Source: Sphaerochaeta pleomorpha str. Grapes | Lineage (GTDB): Bacteria; Spirochaetota; Spirochaetia; Sphaerochaetales; Sphaerochaetaceae | Reading direction: 5' to 3' | Length of the DNA: 64,000 nucleotides | Assembly (NCBI RefSeq): GCF_000236685.1 | Contig: NC_016633.1 | Coordinates: 3,291,815 to 3,355,814 of the forward strand | Part shown: piece after piece, positions 5,432 through 22,009 of the stretch | Numbering within the stretch: the stretch's first letter is position 1 | Layout: each line of letters opens with the position of its first letter | Made by a program: the position numbers and the translations under genes | Notes under the pieces: generated by a model | Seen by the model: the letters and a program-made list of their open reading frames with translations, nothing else | The model's database searches: none | Told to the model about the DNA's origin: nothing

Positions 5432-5556
5432 GGCTTTTACAGCCGTAAAATAGAAAAAATCCATCATTTTTGATGTATCCACTTTTTCGAGTGTGTGTTA
5501 TAGTGTTGTTGAGTACGTATACAACGACACATGAGAACGTCATGAGGAGGAAACAC

Positions 5557-8385
5557 GTGAAACGTCTTTCAAGAACAATTATGACAGCAATGCTGGTTGC
5601 TTTGTTGGCTTTTACCCTTGTAGGTTGTCAAAGTACCGCAAAGGTTGAGTCAATTCCACCGGCCCCTGTTGTAGAACCTGCTCCCGAGCCCGTAGCTCCC
5701 GTAGCAGAAGTTCCCGCAACCATCGAAAAGGTTGCAGAACCTGTAAAGGTTGCAGCACCTGTAGAGGTTGCAGCACCTGCTAAGGTAGCAGAACCGGTCA
5801 AAGTTGAGCCCGCCAAAGCGGTAGCTCCACAGGAAATGACAGAATACCCTTACGGTGTAAAATTGATTGAAAAGAACAATTCCGGAACGAAGGTGTTTGA
5901 TCTTTTCATTGTCCATACTAACGACATTAACGGCAATATTTATGCCGAGAATGGTGGTATGGGTGTAGCTAAGCTTTCAACTATGCTGAAAGCCGCTCAG
6001 GGTATCACTGACAACTGGTTGCTTTTAAACTCGGGAAGCGTTGGTGAATTGCCAGCTTCTGCTTTTCAAACTGCAGCAGATGTAATTGATGGACTTGGTT
6101 ATGATGCATATACCCCACAGGCTATTCAGCTTGCCACCGGTATTGCAGGAACCAAAAAAGCCATTCCCCTCAGTGCAAATGCGCTTGATTCAAAAGGCTA
6201 TCTGGTTGCTCAGCCCTATCAGGTCTATGATTTCAACGGATTCAAGGTTGCAGTCGTAGGTCTCGTAGCGCCCAAAGCCATCCAGGGTGTTTCCTTTACA
6301 AGTGATTTGATCCTTCAGAATGCACAGGCTGCAATCGACATCGCAAAACAGTATGTTGATTACGTCGTTGTTCTCGGCGACCTTGGAAGCAAGGGCCAGT
6401 TGAACAGTGATTTCGTCTGCCAGAACTTGAATGGGATTGATCTTTTTGTAGACGGAAACGGAAGTGCTGAAGCAAAGACGGTCAATGGTACATTGATTGT
6501 TCGCGCTGACCAGAATCTCCAGAGCCTCGGTGCCGTTCAGCTCCATGTTGAAAATGGTGCTGTTACTGCCACCTATCCTATGATTCTTCCTGCAAAGGAC
6601 GTTCTTGATCCTGCTCACTCCCAGATTGCAAAAGCTTTCAGTGGTGTTGCACAGGCCTATGGATATTCCCTTACCTCAGTTCCTGAGGATCCAGCCATTG
6701 TTTCTTTGATCGGGCCAACCCCGGTGAAGAAAGCCGCGGTAGTAGCTCCTGCAAAAGCAGCAGCTCCTGCTAAAGCAGCTGAACCTGCTCCTGTTGTAGC
6801 TCCTGCTCCTGTTGTTGCCCCTGCTCCAGCTCCGGCACCAGCTCCTGCAAAGGTTGCTGTTGAAGCAAAGAAACCTGAGATTGTCTATCCTTATGGTGTG
6901 AAAGAAATCCAGAAGAACGAAGACGGTGCAAAGGAATTTGACCTGTTTGTTGTTCATACCAACGACGTACATGCTCGTATTACACCGGCAGACGGCGGAA
7001 TGGGTTATTCCAAGCTTGCTACCATGTTGAAGATGGGCAGAGCTTTGACTGACAACATTCTTTTGCTCGATGCTGGCGATGTCACCCATGGCACAAACCT
7101 TGCGAACATGTTCGAAGGCGAGCCCGTTGGTGTACTTCTCGATATGCTCGGGTACGATGCTGTTGCTCCTGGTAACCACGATTTCAACTATGGAAAAGAT
7201 CGTCTTATCGAAGCTGCAAAGTATGCAGAAGCAAATACCAGTCTCAAGGTCTTGAGTGCCAACATCCTCGATAAAGATGGATATTTGGTGTTCCAGCCTT
7301 ACCAGGTATATGATTTCAACGGATTCAAGGTTGCTGTCGTCGGTCTCACCACCCCCGATACTGCTACCAAGACCCATCCTAAAAATGTCCAAGGTCTTTC
7401 TTTCATGGATGATGTAATCATTCAGAATGCACAGGCTGCCATCGATGTTGCCCGTTCAATGGTTGACTATATCATTGTTCTCGGCCATATCGGTCTTGAC
7501 TATGATGGAGCTTCAGGCATTACCAGCGACTTGATCTGCCAGAATGTTAAGGGAATCGACTTGTTTGTAGATGGTCACAGCCACACTACCCTCGAACAGG
7601 GTAAGAAAGTTGGTGACACTCTCATCGTACAGACTGGTTCCTATATGCAGAATGTTGGTGTTGTACAGATTCATGTTAAGAATGGAAAAGTTACTGCAAC
7701 CTATCCGATGTTGATTCCTGCAAAGGACGTTTTGGATCCTAAGAATTCCGCAATGGCCAAGGCCTATGGAATTACTGACATCCCCAACGACCCACAGGTT
7801 GATGAATATGTCGGTTACATGACTGCCAAGTTGGGCGACCAGCTTAACAGGGTTATTGCAACTATTCCTGAGACCCTGCAGGGTGAACGTGCCGATGTAC
7901 GTACCAAGCAGACCAACCTCTCCAAGCTTATTACAAAGGCTATGACCGAAGAAAGCGGCGCTGACTTTGCCATCACCAATGGCGGCGGTATCCGTACTTC
8001 GATTGCAGCTGGAAACGTAACAGTTGGCGATGTAGTCAAGGTGCTTCCTTTCACAAACATCATCACCGTTTGTGAGATCAAGGGTTCTGAAGTCTATGCT
8101 GCTCTCGAGCATGGCTACAGCATGTTGCCTGAGACCAATGGTGCTTTCTCCCAGACTGACCTTCAGGTTGTTTACAACCGGTATGCAGCTCCTGGAAAAC
8201 GTATCCTGCGCGTCTTGCTCAACGGAAAGGTCCTTGATAAGAATGCTACCTATAAAGTAGCTACCAATGACTTCATGGCTGCTGGCGGCGATGGATACAC
8301 CATGTTCGGTAAGGTCCTTACTGAAGGCTCCTTGCTCAGTGATGTGTTCATGGATTACCTTGCAGCTAACTATCCTGTGAAGTAG
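5557..8385 (+). CDS. Lipoprotein 5'-nucleotidase with a degenerate N-terminal copy and an intact C-terminal copy
   Basis: A 942-residue exported protein. The GTG at 5557 is chosen because AGGAGG lies just upstream and it gives a proper lipoprotein signal (LVGC, Cys24). A Pro/Ala/Val-rich linker (about 30-90) leads to a first metallophosphoesterase-like domain (about 95-375), a second Pro/Ala linker (about 390-440), a second metallophosphoesterase domain (about 460-735) and a 5'-nucleotidase C-terminal domain containing NGGGIR. The second copy keeps the metal ligands: HTNDVH, DAGD, GNHDF, LGHIG and DGHSHT. The first copy is clearly homologous but has lost them (HTNDIN, NSGS, no GNHD, LGDLG, DGNGSA). 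The family hydrolyses nucleotides and UDP-sugars outside the cytoplasm for salvage. The first copy is probably structural or ligand binding. Confidence 0.9.
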   Translation: MKRLSRTIMTAMLVALLAFTLVGCQSTAKVESIPPAPVVEPAPEPVAPVAEVPATIEKVAEPVKVAAPVEVAAPAKVAEPVKVEPAKAVAPQEMTEYPYGVKLIEKNNSGTKVFDLFIVHTNDINGNIYAENGGMGVAKLSTMLKAAQGITDNWLLLNSGSVGELPASAFQTAADVIDGLGYDAYTPQAIQLATGIAGTKKAIPLSANALDSKGYLVAQPYQVYDFNGFKVAVVGLVAPKAIQGVSFTSDLILQNAQAAIDIAKQYVDYVVVLGDLGSKGQLNSDFVCQNLNGIDLFVDGNGSAEAKTVNGTLIVRADQNLQSLGAVQLHVENGAVTATYPMILPAKDVLDPAHSQIAKAFSGVAQAYGYSLTSVPEDPAIVSLIGPTPVKKAAVVAPAKAAAPAKAAEPAPVVAPAPVVAPAPAPAPAPAKVAVEAKKPEIVYPYGVKEIQKNEDGAKEFDLFVVHTNDVHARITPADGGMGYSKLATMLKMGRALTDNILLLDAGDVTHGTNLANMFEGEPVGVLLDMLGYDAVAPGNHDFNYGKDRLIEAAKYAEANTSLKVLSANILDKDGYLVFQPYQVYDFNGFKVAVVGLTTPDTATKTHPKNVQGLSFMDDVIIQNAQAAIDVARSMVDYIIVLGHIGLDYDGASGITSDLICQNVKGIDLFVDGHSHTTLEQGKKVGDTLIVQTGSYMQNVGVVQIHVKNGKVTATYPMLIPAKDVLDPKNSAMAKAYGITDIPNDPQVDEYVGYMTAKLGDQLNRVIATIPETLQGERADVRTKQTNLSKLITKAMTEESGADFAITNGGGIRTSIAAGNVTVGDVVKVLPFTNIITVCEIKGSEVYAALEHGYSMLPETNGAFSQTDLQVVYNRYAAPGKRILRVLLNGKVLDKNATYKVATNDFMAAGGDGYTMFGKVLTEGSLLSDVFMDYLAANYPVK

Positions 8386-17862: not shown

Positions 17863-20547
17863 ATGGACTACGCTGAAAAAGATTTTGGAAAGATTTTGAA
17901 AACCAATGCATTGAAAATGCGTCGGCTGTTGTTAGGAAATGACACGAATTGTATGCGTGTCTACGATAGGAACCTTGAACGTTTTCCGGTAACGGTGGAC
18001 ATGTATGGTCCGTATGCGAGAATTACTGATTACAGTGAAGAGGGCTTGGACGAGGAAACAGAAAGGGTATGCTGCGACATAGTATCCCGGATGTTATATG
18101 TCCAGGCGGTACATGTTGTATTCCACCATCGGATCAAGAGGATAGGAAAGGAACAACATGAAACACAGAGCGAGGAATCGCTCATGGCTCAGGTATCGGA
18201 AAATGGATTGTTATTTACCGTTGACCTGACAAAACGCATCGATACCGGCTTATTTCTCGATCATATGCTGACAAGGCAAATGGTGATGGGAATGAGCGAG
18301 GGTATGACGGTTCTGAATTTATTCTCCTATACAGGTTCGTTTTCCGTATACGCCGCAAAAGGTGGGGCGAAACGAGTTGAATCGGTAGATTTGTCTGGAA
18401 CCTATACGGCTTGGGCTCAGAAAAACCTTTCGGATAATGGGTTTCCGGAAGAACTGTTCCCTTGTATTGCCTCGGATGCCTGGCGATACGTGGTTGAAGC
18501 CGTCCAAGAGGGGCGTCGATACGACTTGATAGTATTTGATCCCCCATGTTTCTCAAACAGCAGGAAGATGGACCATGATTTTGATGTCCAGAGAGACTAC
18601 CTGCGATGGATTAAGGTGCTTAATGCCCTTTTGACAAAAAATGGAATATTGTTGTTCTCTACAAACCTGAGTAATTTCAGAATGGACAAGGGCGCGATTC
18701 GCGGTTACGAGGTTGAAGATATCAGTTCGAGTGTCGCAGCACCGGGCTTTACCAACCGTTTGGGAATCGCAAGAAGTTGGTTGCTATATAAGCAACAGGA
18801 TGTACGGCTCTATGCAGGTGACCTGCAGACCGTTGACAAGAAAGCTGTAAAGAAACAGCGCGATACAGAAGAATTGGAAGATACAAAAATGACTAAGAAA
18901 AAAGAAGTGAAGAGCGAAGAAATGATTGAAGAACGTATTGAAGACGTCAAGGTTGAAGAAAACCTTGCAGAAGAAGCCGTACAGAATGAAGCACTTGTTG
19001 AAGAAACTGTAGAGAATGATGCAATTGAAACTGAAGAGAACGATGATTTCGTTGAAGATATTGCTGAAGAAACCGAAGAAGATGACGAAGTCTATGCAGA
19101 AGATGATGAAGAGTTGGATTCTGACGACGAGGAAGAAGCTGATGAAGATTTTGATGAAGAATCTGATGAAGCTCCCGTCGAAGATGCAAACACCATCGAA
19201 GATGACGTTTTGTCCTTGCAGTGGGATGATGACGATGTAGAACCGATTGCCTCTGTCGAGAAATCGGATGAAAACACTGAACGCAAACCACCCCGTGAGT
19301 TTGGACAGGACAGGGATCGTGAAGGCCGTGGCCGTGATGACCGTCGTCCTTCCTATGGAGAGCGCGACTCCAGGCCCAGTGCCGGTGGAGACCGTGAACG
19401 CCGCCCTTATGGTGACCGCGATTCAAGGCCTAGCTTCGGTGGAGACCGCGATCGTCGTCCTTCCTATGGCGACCGTGAACGCCGCCCCTATGGAGAGCGT
19501 GATTCCAGGCCCAGCTTCGGTGGGGACCGTGACCGTCGTCCTTCCTATGGCGACCGTGATTCCAGGCCCAGTGCAGGTGGAGACCGTGAACGCCGTCCCT
19601 ATGGAGAGCGTGATTCCAGACCCAGCTTCGGCGGAGACCGTGAACGTCGTCCATATGGCGACCGTGATTCCAGGCCCAGCTTCGGCGGAGACCGTGACCG
19701 TCGTCCTTCCTATGGAGAGCGCGATTCCAAGCCCAGCTTCGGCGGAGACCGTGAACGTCGTCCATATGGCGACCGTGATTCCAGGCCCAGCTTCGGTGGA
19801 GACCGTCGTCCTTCCTATGGAGAGCGCGATTCCAAGCCCAGCTTCGGTGGAGACCGCGACCGTCGTCCTTCCTATGGAGACCGTGATTCCAAGCCCAGCT
19901 TCGGTGGAGACCGTGACCGTCGTCCTTCCTATGGAGACCGTGATTCCAAGCCCAGCTTCGGTGGAGACCGTGACCGTCGTCCTTCCTATGGCGACCGTGA
20001 TTCCAAGCCCAGCTTCGGTGGAGACCGCGACCGTCGTCCTTCCTATGGAGACCGTGATTCCAAGCCCAGCTTCGGTGGAGACCGCGACCGTCGTCCTTCC
20101 TATGGAGACCGCGATTCCAAGCCCAGCTTCGGCGGAGACCGTGAACGTCGTCCATATGGCGACCGTGATTCCAGGCCCAGCTTCGGTGGAGACCGTGACC
20201 GTCGTCCTTCCTATGGCGATCGTGATTCCAAGCCCAGCTTCGGCGGAGATCGTGACCGTCGTCCTTCCTATGGCGACCGTGATTCCAAGCCCAGCTTCGG
20301 TGGAGACCGTGAACGCCGTCCTTCTTATGGCGACCGTGGTGCAAGACCTGGTTTCGGTGGAGACCGCGACCGTCGTCCTTCCTTTGGTGACCGTGACAGG
20401 ACTCCTGTTGCTGGTGGCGAAAGGCGCGATAGGAACTCTGCCCCCAAGCCTTATGGTTATGACAAGTTCAAGACCACCCGTACCCGTGGACAGGAAGAGA
20501 ATACAGATTCTTTCTTCTGGCTCGAGGATCACAAAGACGACAAATAG
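17863..20547 (+). CDS. RlmK-like rRNA methyltransferase fused to acidic and Arg/Asp-repeat tails
   Basis: A protein of 894 residues in three parts. Residues 1-320 match the C-terminal (RlmK) half of E. coli RlmKL, which makes m7G2069 in 23S rRNA: CMRVYDRNLE, DTGLFLDH, SAM motif LNLFSYTGSFSVYAA (151-165), FDPPCFSNSRKM (225-236), FDVQRDYL, and NFRMD. Residues ~335-460 are very acidic (long Glu/Asp runs). Residues ~490-850 are about 18 near-identical ~19-residue repeats of the form DRDSKPSFGGDRDRRPSYG. A short unique end (TDSFFWLEDHKDDK) follows. No frameshift separates the parts. The tail resembles RGG/RDR low-complexity RNA-binding tails of RNA helicases. Standalone RlmK with such a tail is unusual. 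The fusion is seen directly; the RNA-binding role is inferred. Confidence 0.88.
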   Translation: MDYAEKDFGKILKTNALKMRRLLLGNDTNCMRVYDRNLERFPVTVDMYGPYARITDYSEEGLDEETERVCCDIVSRMLYVQAVHVVFHHRIKRIGKEQHETQSEESLMAQVSENGLLFTVDLTKRIDTGLFLDHMLTRQMVMGMSEGMTVLNLFSYTGSFSVYAAKGGAKRVESVDLSGTYTAWAQKNLSDNGFPEELFPCIASDAWRYVVEAVQEGRRYDLIVFDPPCFSNSRKMDHDFDVQRDYLRWIKVLNALLTKNGILLFSTNLSNFRMDKGAIRGYEVEDISSSVAAPGFTNRLGIARSWLLYKQQDVRLYAGDLQTVDKKAVKKQRDTEELEDTKMTKKKEVKSEEMIEERIEDVKVEENLAEEAVQNEALVEETVENDAIETEENDDFVEDIAEETEEDDEVYAEDDEELDSDDEEEADEDFDEESDEAPVEDANTIEDDVLSLQWDDDDVEPIASVEKSDENTERKPPREFGQDRDREGRGRDDRRPSYGERDSRPSAGGDRERRPYGDRDSRPSFGGDRDRRPSYGDRERRPYGERDSRPSFGGDRDRRPSYGDRDSRPSAGGDRERRPYGERDSRPSFGGDRERRPYGDRDSRPSFGGDRDRRPSYGERDSKPSFGGDRERRPYGDRDSRPSFGGDRRPSYGERDSKPSFGGDRDRRPSYGDRDSKPSFGGDRDRRPSYGDRDSKPSFGGDRDRRPSYGDRDSKPSFGGDRDRRPSYGDRDSKPSFGGDRDRRPSYGDRDSKPSFGGDRERRPYGDRDSRPSFGGDRDRRPSYGDRDSKPSFGGDRDRRPSYGDRDSKPSFGGDRERRPSYGDRGARPGFGGDRDRRPSFGDRDRTPVAGGERRDRNSAPKPYGYDKFKTTRTRGQEENTDSFFWLEDHKDDK
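19333..20412 (+). repeat. In-frame tandem repeat array, ~57-base unit
   Basis: Around 18 tandem units, mostly 57 bases (19 codons) with some shortened units, encode the Arg/Asp/Ser/Gly tail of the methyltransferase. The central units (about 19,840-20,120) are almost identical at the DNA level, differing mainly at GAC-CGT/CGC and GGA/GGC wobble positions. This is a sign of recent expansion or homogenisation. Confidence 0.95.
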
Positions 20548-20585: not shown

Positions 20586-20622
20586 AAACCCCCAGAAGTT
20601 GGCGACAACCCCTGGGGGTTTC
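20586..20622 (+). terminator. Rho-independent terminator
   Basis: AACCCCCAG (20587 on) pairs with CTGGGGGTT (ending 20620), then TCTCTCCTGTTTC. It ends the methyltransferase gene. Confidence 0.8.
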
Positions 20623-20990: not shown

Positions 20991-21019
20991 TTGACAATGA
21001 AGTTTCAAAGATTTATAAT
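20991..21019 (+). promoter_or_regulatory. Consensus sigma-70 promoter of the perR-rubrerythrin operon
   Basis: A perfect TTGACA (20991-20996), 17-base spacer and perfect TATAAT (21014-21019). Confidence 0.9.
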
Positions 21020-21052: not shown

Positions 21053-21457
21053 ATGAAAGCTATCCGTCAGACAATTCAGAAAGACCTGGTCAAGGAAACT
21101 GTGTTTGCTTCCTGTGATCATCCGACAGCAGAACAGATTTACAACACCATTGTTCTCACCCATCCCTCTATCAGTAAGGCAACTGTATATAGGAACCTGA
21201 ATCTGTTGGTAGATGATGGGCTTGTGAAACGGGTACAGGTGCTTGGTGGGCCTGACCACTTTGATAAGACAGTCCTGGATCATTATCACATTCAATGTAC
21301 CTGCTGTAAGCGGGTAGAGGATGTTGAGGGTATTCCGAATCTAGGGATATTGGCCGGGATTACGAATGCAAAAGGGTATCGTATAGATTCCTATGAAATT
21401 GTTTTCAGCGGGGTTTGCCCCGATTGTCTAGAAAAAAATGCTGCCATGAAGCAGTGA
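21053..21457 (+). CDS. perR: Fur-family regulator, PerR-like
   Basis: A 134-residue metal-dependent repressor. It has the winged-helix part (ATVYRNLNLLVDDGLVKRV), the metal-site segment DHFDKTVLDHYHIQCTCC and a C-terminal CPDC, which together with CTCC forms the structural zinc site. Fur, PerR and Zur share this layout. The PerR assignment rests on the rubrerythrin gene 12 bases downstream, part of the peroxide response in anaerobes. Confidence 0.85.
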   Translation: MKAIRQTIQKDLVKETVFASCDHPTAEQIYNTIVLTHPSISKATVYRNLNLLVDDGLVKRVQVLGGPDHFDKTVLDHYHIQCTCCKRVEDVEGIPNLGILAGITNAKGYRIDSYEIVFSGVCPDCLEKNAAMKQ

Positions 21458-21469
21458 AGGAGCACGAGT

Positions 21470-22009
21470 ATGGAATTGAAAGGATCAAAGACCGAAGCTA
21501 ATCTGGCTGCAGCTTTTGCAGGGGAATCACAGGCAAGGAATAAGTATACCTATTATGCCTCAAAAGCACGCAAAGAAGGGTATGAGCAGATTGCAAACCT
21601 GTTTGAAGAAACTGCAGGGAACGAAAAAGAACATGCAAAAATCTGGTTCAAGTTGCTCCATGGCGGTGAAGTTGCAGATACTGCTACCAATCTCAAGGAT
21701 GCTGCTGCCGGGGAATATTATGAATGGACCGATATGTATGTAAACTTTGCAAAGGATGCACGTGCAGAAGGGTTTACAAAGATTGCCACTCTGTTTGAAT
21801 TGGTTGCAGCAATCGAGAAAACCCATGAGAAGCGTTACCTTGACCTTTTGAAGAATGTAGAGGAAGGCCTTGTATTTAGCAGAGATGGCGAGCAAATCTG
21901 GAGATGTTCCAATTGTGGCCATATCGTAGTCGGGAAAAAGGCTCCTGGCATTTGTGCTGTCTGCAATCATCCGCAGGCATACTTTGAACTTGTCAGCCAG
22001 AACTACTAG
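21470..22009 (+). CDS. rbr: Rubrerythrin
   Basis: This 179-residue protein has the N-terminal diiron four-helix domain ([52 protein letters not shown]) and a C-terminal rubredoxin-like iron site (CSNCGHI...CAVCNHP). It reduces hydrogen peroxide to water in anaerobes using electrons from rubredoxin. It is preceded by GGAG and co-transcribed with the PerR-like regulator. Confidence 0.96.

Follow-up and report, generated by a model that had tools for sequence, protein, structure and literature searches.

The window analysed here, a 64,000-nucleotide stretch of the Sphaerochaeta pleomorpha str. Grapes genome, contains on the + strand a gene whose single frame runs from an ATG at 17863 to a TAG ending at 20547, without internal stops, and encodes a protein of 894 aa. 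From its N-terminus, this protein is composed of an RlmK-type class I SAM-dependent rRNA methyltransferase domain (aa 1-310; 17863..18792), an acidic low-complexity segment (aa 311-473; 18793..19281) which includes the linker motif EDDVLSLQWDDDD, recognized from aligned relatives (aa 446-458; 19198..19236), a tandem array of 54/57-bp units coding for DRDSKPSFGGDRDRRPSYG-like arginine/aspartate repeats (19354..20396), and a C-terminal motif region with KPYGYDKFKTTRTRGQEENTDSFFWLEDHKDDK, conserved throughout the family (20437..20544). A likely intrinsic terminator, AAACCCCCAG ... CTGGGGGTTT followed by a T-rich stretch (20586..20621, + strand), was identified by eye ~40 bp past the stop codon; a terminator scan returned only partial stems at this position, owing to its loop limit. 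The gene is probably monocistronic. Further downstream, a perfect 12/12 match to a sigma-70-type promoter (20991-21019, + strand) is located just upstream of a gene for a PerR-like regulator (at 21053), which is followed by a rubrerythrin gene (at 21470). Elsewhere in the window, positions 5470-8385 (+ strand) encode a 971-aa protein with two 5'-nucleotidase/metallophosphoesterase-like halves joined by Pro/Ala/Lys repeat linkers. As judged by eye, the metal-binding residues present in its second half (HTNDVHAR, LLDAGDV and GNHD) are missing from the first (HTNDINGN and LLNSGSV).

The sequence-only reading had described a standalone protein in which the enzyme is followed by an acidic stretch and then by a long, charged tail of low complexity, and this architecture is real. 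The frameshift or assembly break between enzyme and tail that might have explained it away is absent from the S. pleomorpha genome, and an artefact of this kind was rejected, since the genome is a single contig and close relatives share the identical architecture. Among 16 repeat copies, the fraction of minority letters was 0.008, 0.035 and 0.172 at the first, second and third codon positions of the enzyme's frame, respectively, and the exchanges between copies (D/E, K/R) preserve charge. One antisense frame across the repeats is likewise mostly silent (505 synonymous and 28 nonsynonymous changes); because its wobble positions coincide with those of the enzyme's frame, the comparison of synonymous and nonsynonymous changes alone is not decisive. 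Antisense coding is excluded by continuity with the enzyme and with the conserved terminal motif, the entire region from the enzyme to the C-terminus being open in the enzyme's frame only in 28 out of 28 complete tails (that of the window included). The codon-position pattern and these 28 tails also led us to reject a chance ORF or a wrong frame.

The N-terminal domain is of the RlmK type, as had been proposed. Positions 396-702 of the NCBIfam model NF008748, corresponding to its K half, match aa 6-310 with 275 bits for the domain alone, which is below the curated cut-off of 466 bits for the full L+K protein, so the protein does not qualify as an RlmKL equivalog. The profile match of the RlmK-type domain has an E-value of 1.1e-86, a sequence search recovered PDB 3v97 with E=2.6e-51, and 3v97 was also the best Foldseek match of the predicted model (E 6.9e-24). 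Motif comparison revealed that DTGLFLDH (aa 127-134), LNLFSYTG (aa 151-158) and the catalytic motif IV DPPCFSNS (aa 226-233; 18538..18561, + strand) are intact; the catalytic domain carries both the SAM-binding and the DPPxFSNS motifs of RlmK. Another fold match of the predicted model is chain E4 of PDB 6yxx (E 5.4e-12), which belongs to an assembly intermediate of the trypanosome mitoribosomal large subunit and might offer a parallel for a role in assembly.

The protein had been taken for the RlmK half of Escherichia coli RlmKL in standalone form. The domain assignment held, while orthology did not: S. pleomorpha also encodes a 748-aa RlmKL in which the motifs of both the L and the K half are intact (L077:1043-3289), as do nearly all of the tailed relatives, and the window protein branches apart from it. 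In a tree rooted with remoter superfamily enzymes (2b78, 3vse and 3c0k), from which long-branched rows were left out, E. coli RlmK, the spirochaetal RlmKLs and the standalone RlmKs of other spirochaetes form one clade (96/80), and the window protein belongs to a second (97/80). Within the latter, tail-less proteins from other families branch first and the tailed proteins constitute one group (100/100). A larger tree without an outgroup recovered the same tailed group, with one tail-less protein (G030) nested inside it. It follows that the window protein, a member of the RlmK/RlmI/RlmO superfamily, is paralogous to RlmK, and Spirochaetia thus hold an uncharacterised clade of RlmK paralogues. 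Since the protein belongs to this clade and its host has an RlmKL of its own, methylation of G2069 by the window protein is not established.

It could nevertheless be a redundant second RlmK for m7G2069, with a tail that replaces the RlmL/THUMP half in RNA recruitment and helix opening. Its nearest characterised relative is the RlmK of RlmKL, and RlmKL unwinds helix-74, thereby aiding cooperative modification, according to work cited in PMC11194073. We consider this redundancy unlikely, given the coexistence with an intact RlmKL described above and the occurrence of the paralogue clade, also in tail-less form, in other families possessing RlmKL. Moreover, other m7G targets of 23S rRNA have their own enzymes, an example being m7G2574, which is made by RlmQ/YwbD according to the title of a reference in PMC12805891.

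The repeat tail comprises ~390 aa; it had been correctly recognized as large, at a somewhat underestimated length of ~360 aa. Analysis of positions 19354-20396 with TRF gave a main period of 57 bp (16.3 copies, score 1291), and the translated unit of the window gene is DRDS[KR]PSFGGDR[DE]RRPSYG. The window repeats contain 25% R, 3% K, 21% D/E and about 10% F/Y, and are near-neutral (NCPR about +0.06). In nearly all lineages of the family, the corresponding values are about 25-38% R, 0-6% K and 20-30% D/E, with an NCPR of +0.05 to +0.13. The tail had been likened to RGG tails, a comparison that did not survive inspection: the window translation contains no RGG clusters, and the repeats are instead of the arginine/aspartate mixed-charge kind (R-enriched MCD or DRYG-like), being R-rich and K-poor, with a similar D/E content, low complexity and disorder. 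The expected disorder is indeed predicted, with a pLDDT of about 30-40 for the repeats in two AlphaFold models; these models, built on an alignment of only 9 sequences, gave no confident placement of the linker or terminal motif on the enzyme. No other protein of the S. pleomorpha genome was found to carry the tail or the motif. Pfam matches of the tail to Spt5-CTD, proline-rich and EsV entries were judged to reflect low complexity and not homology. Within the library of papers searched, none dealt with the Sphaerochaeta protein or described an RlmK bearing a tail.

The acidic part, predicted to span ~125 residues, exists but is longer (about 150-160 aa), with 45% D/E against 9% K/R over aa 319-470. 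It is a lineage-specific expansion, reduced to 10-50 aa in G031-G035, G283, G259, G273, G239 and G247, and several genera with little or no acidic segment still retain the repeat tail and the end motif. Acidic charge and repeat charge were correlated over all genomes (rho -0.56), whereas with one genome per lineage they were uncorrelated (rho -0.32, p 0.22), and the notion of a conserved charge balance between the two parts was therefore dropped. For the same reasons, the proposed intramolecular interaction of acidic and basic parts finds no family-wide support: such a clasp may exist in Sphaerochaeta, but it is not a design of the family. The acidic segment could also repel RNA. The linker motif, with the family consensus DDxLxLxW(D/E), is retained in most lineages. 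In genera possessing an acidic segment it lies where that segment ends, and where the segment is missing (L100, L101, G031, G033) it directly follows the enzyme.

These observations bear on the idea that the tail chiefly drives condensation, its arginine-enriched repeats being cohesive within an RNA-rich condensate that the acidic segment tunes or autoinhibits. The composition fits that of arginine-enriched mixed-charge domains, with aromatics at regular intervals, and there is a precedent with basic and acidic motifs in the Rho protein of Bacteroides thetaiotaomicron (BtRho). As the acidic segment is not conserved and the tail is carried by one protein per genome, condensation seems to us an improbable main function.

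The very end of the protein behaves differently from the repeats. A search with a single-sequence query located PYG[FY]D in 64 of 100 family genomes, with exactly one occurrence in each. A profile of the motif, built partly from the same family genomes, detected it in 19/21 genomes of the family and in 0/177 outside it in a class-wide sample. Pooled pN/pS amounted to 0.20 for the terminal motif and 0.21 for the enzyme, indicating equal purifying selection, and to 0.30 for the linker motif, although these figures are descriptive, as the pairs compared are not phylogenetically independent and some are close to saturation at synonymous sites. The repeat words vary among genera, and even among species within a genus, and across the family the repeats span anywhere from about 155 to 460 aa. 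A conserved end beside changing repeats suggests that the tail has its own job.

In Sphaerochaeta, the gene order is galE-PMM-u152 (divergent), the tailed gene, (PerR-rubrerythrin) amidohydrolase-GlnRS. Much of this neighbourhood also surrounds tail-less orthologues in other Spirochaetia (G037, G038, G051, G056 and G059), where the paralogue lies at the PMM-u152/GlnRS locus, in several cases alongside RlmKL. These are the same gene by tree and by position (u152 and mostly PMM upstream, GlnRS downstream), but they end at ~307-331 aa and lack the linker motif, the repeats and the C-terminal motif. Because the tail-less orthologues are syntenic, the tail was added to a pre-existing gene at a pre-existing place. 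It is the mark of one clade, Sphaerochaetaceae, with a single origin; an RlmK paralogue acquired a C-terminal disordered tail once, at the base of this family. The sequence-only reading knew of no RlmK with such an extension; the tail proved to be a family-wide feature, not a one-off. Close relatives with identical flanks were the sequence-only reading's own check, and the tail is present in them; it is missing only from other families and from reduced or decayed copies.

Such copies were observed in several genomes. Among family genomes of 1.2 Mb, G030 has the enzyme without the tail, and G295 and G307 retain RlmKL only. G027 has at the same locus (L088:1423-2245) a tail-less copy in which all three catalytic motifs are destroyed, and in G026 (L057) the motifs are altered to FTGLTLEQ, LNLFANTG and DSPNFSNS while the tail is intact. 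These last cases are single assemblies of little weight by themselves; together, the two copies hint that the function of the tail may outlast catalysis for a while. An AT-rich lineage (G247/G278) has only a K-rich tail of ~70 aa, which, together with the tail-less G030, shows the tail to be dispensable in reduced genomes. In the relative G019 (L038), whose genome is one contig, the repeat tail contains several apparent frame changes, with the conserved end still downstream; these are either sequencing errors or real decay. The G019 indels and the unresolved bases in G006, G007 and G021 most likely represent assembly problems in the repeats.

Fast turnover of the repeats, large length differences among close species, near-neutral charge, and the loss or shortening of the tail in G030 and G247/G278 are all consistent with a polyampholyte that serves solubility or acts as an entropic spacer, grown by replication slippage and of little specific function, in which only the end motif matters. 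This explanation is hard to reconcile with the bias of R over K and the aromatics, both kept in almost every genus although GC content differs among them, with the retention of no fewer than 155 tail residues in most lineages, and with a frame that is intact in all complete tails except in assemblies with apparent indels. We therefore regard an inert spacer as doubtful.

The reading that we favour, with middling confidence, is that the tail serves as a disordered, arginine-enriched mixed-charge tether that would hold the RlmK paralogue on nascent or precursor 23S rRNA. A disordered tether is the most economical explanation because weak multivalent binding or spacing calls for a composition that stays constant while words and length vary, and specific docking calls for a conserved end. 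The tail consists of a short acidic-aromatic motif, fast-changing mixed-charge repeats and, as its conserved terminus, the peptide PYG[FY]D. The enzyme would methylate a base of 23S rRNA, its presumed substrate, during 50S assembly; the repeats would provide a weak, multivalent and roughly length-tolerant tether to RNA or the pre-ribosome, raising the local concentration of enzyme on nascent rRNA, and PYG[FY]D would act as a specific docking peptide. As the repeats are near-neutral overall, their affinity for RNA could be weak. The dispensability of the tail in reduced genomes, a possible repulsion of RNA by the acidic segment and the two models, in which neither motif is placed confidently on the enzyme, likewise speak against this reading. 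A stronger version, which we put forward tentatively and with considerable doubt, would make the hypervariable arginine/aspartate repeats and the docking peptide on a second RlmK-like enzyme a dedicated pre-ribosome tether, and the protein an assembly factor, the bacterial counterpart of the eukaryotic snoRNP tails; the G026 protein might then work without methylation.

In eukaryotic nucleoli, charged disordered tails on the machinery that modifies rRNA have been studied thoroughly; in bacteria they have hardly been studied. The Sphaerochaetaceae offer a single-gene, family-wide case in which natural tail-less orthologues, length variants and a conserved end make the role of the tail directly testable. 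The enzyme fold is a known one, its paralogue clade is uncharacterised, and the disordered tail, specific to one family, is of a kind familiar from eukaryotes.

In eukaryotes, snoRNP proteins bear charged KKE/D tails by which rRNA-modifying enzymes become concentrated close to nascent rRNA (PMC11528048), and the disordered regions of eIF4B, with its DRYG domain, drive RNA-dependent clustering (PMC13232145). These tails, like arginine-enriched mixed-charge domains, are similarly disordered, R(or K)/D(E)-rich extensions of RNA-handling proteins. The Sphaerochaeta tail differs from those of eIF4B and snoRNPs in being bacterial and near-neutral and in having a conserved terminal peptide, so the resemblance is one of analogy without homology. 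BtRho, likewise a bacterial RNA enzyme, has a disordered region that is specific to its lineage and contains short conserved charged motifs; these mediate RNA binding and condensation (PMC13269538). However, its region is lysine/glutamate-rich and not a repeat of the Sphaerochaeta kind, and its phase behaviour has been measured, whereas the Sphaerochaeta tail is known from sequence and models. The enzyme itself is closest to the RlmK half of E. coli RlmKL (PDB 3v97/3v8v); RlmKL contributes to the assembly of 50S subunits, in part without relying on methylation (PMC11194073). In the structural match, the whole domain aligns over aa 6-308 with 32% identity, and the motifs DTGLFLDH, LNLFSYTG and DPPxFSNS are shared. 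Unlike E. coli RlmK, the Sphaerochaeta enzyme is a standalone protein with a C-terminal extension of 580 aa, and is paralogous to the RlmKL residing in the same genome.
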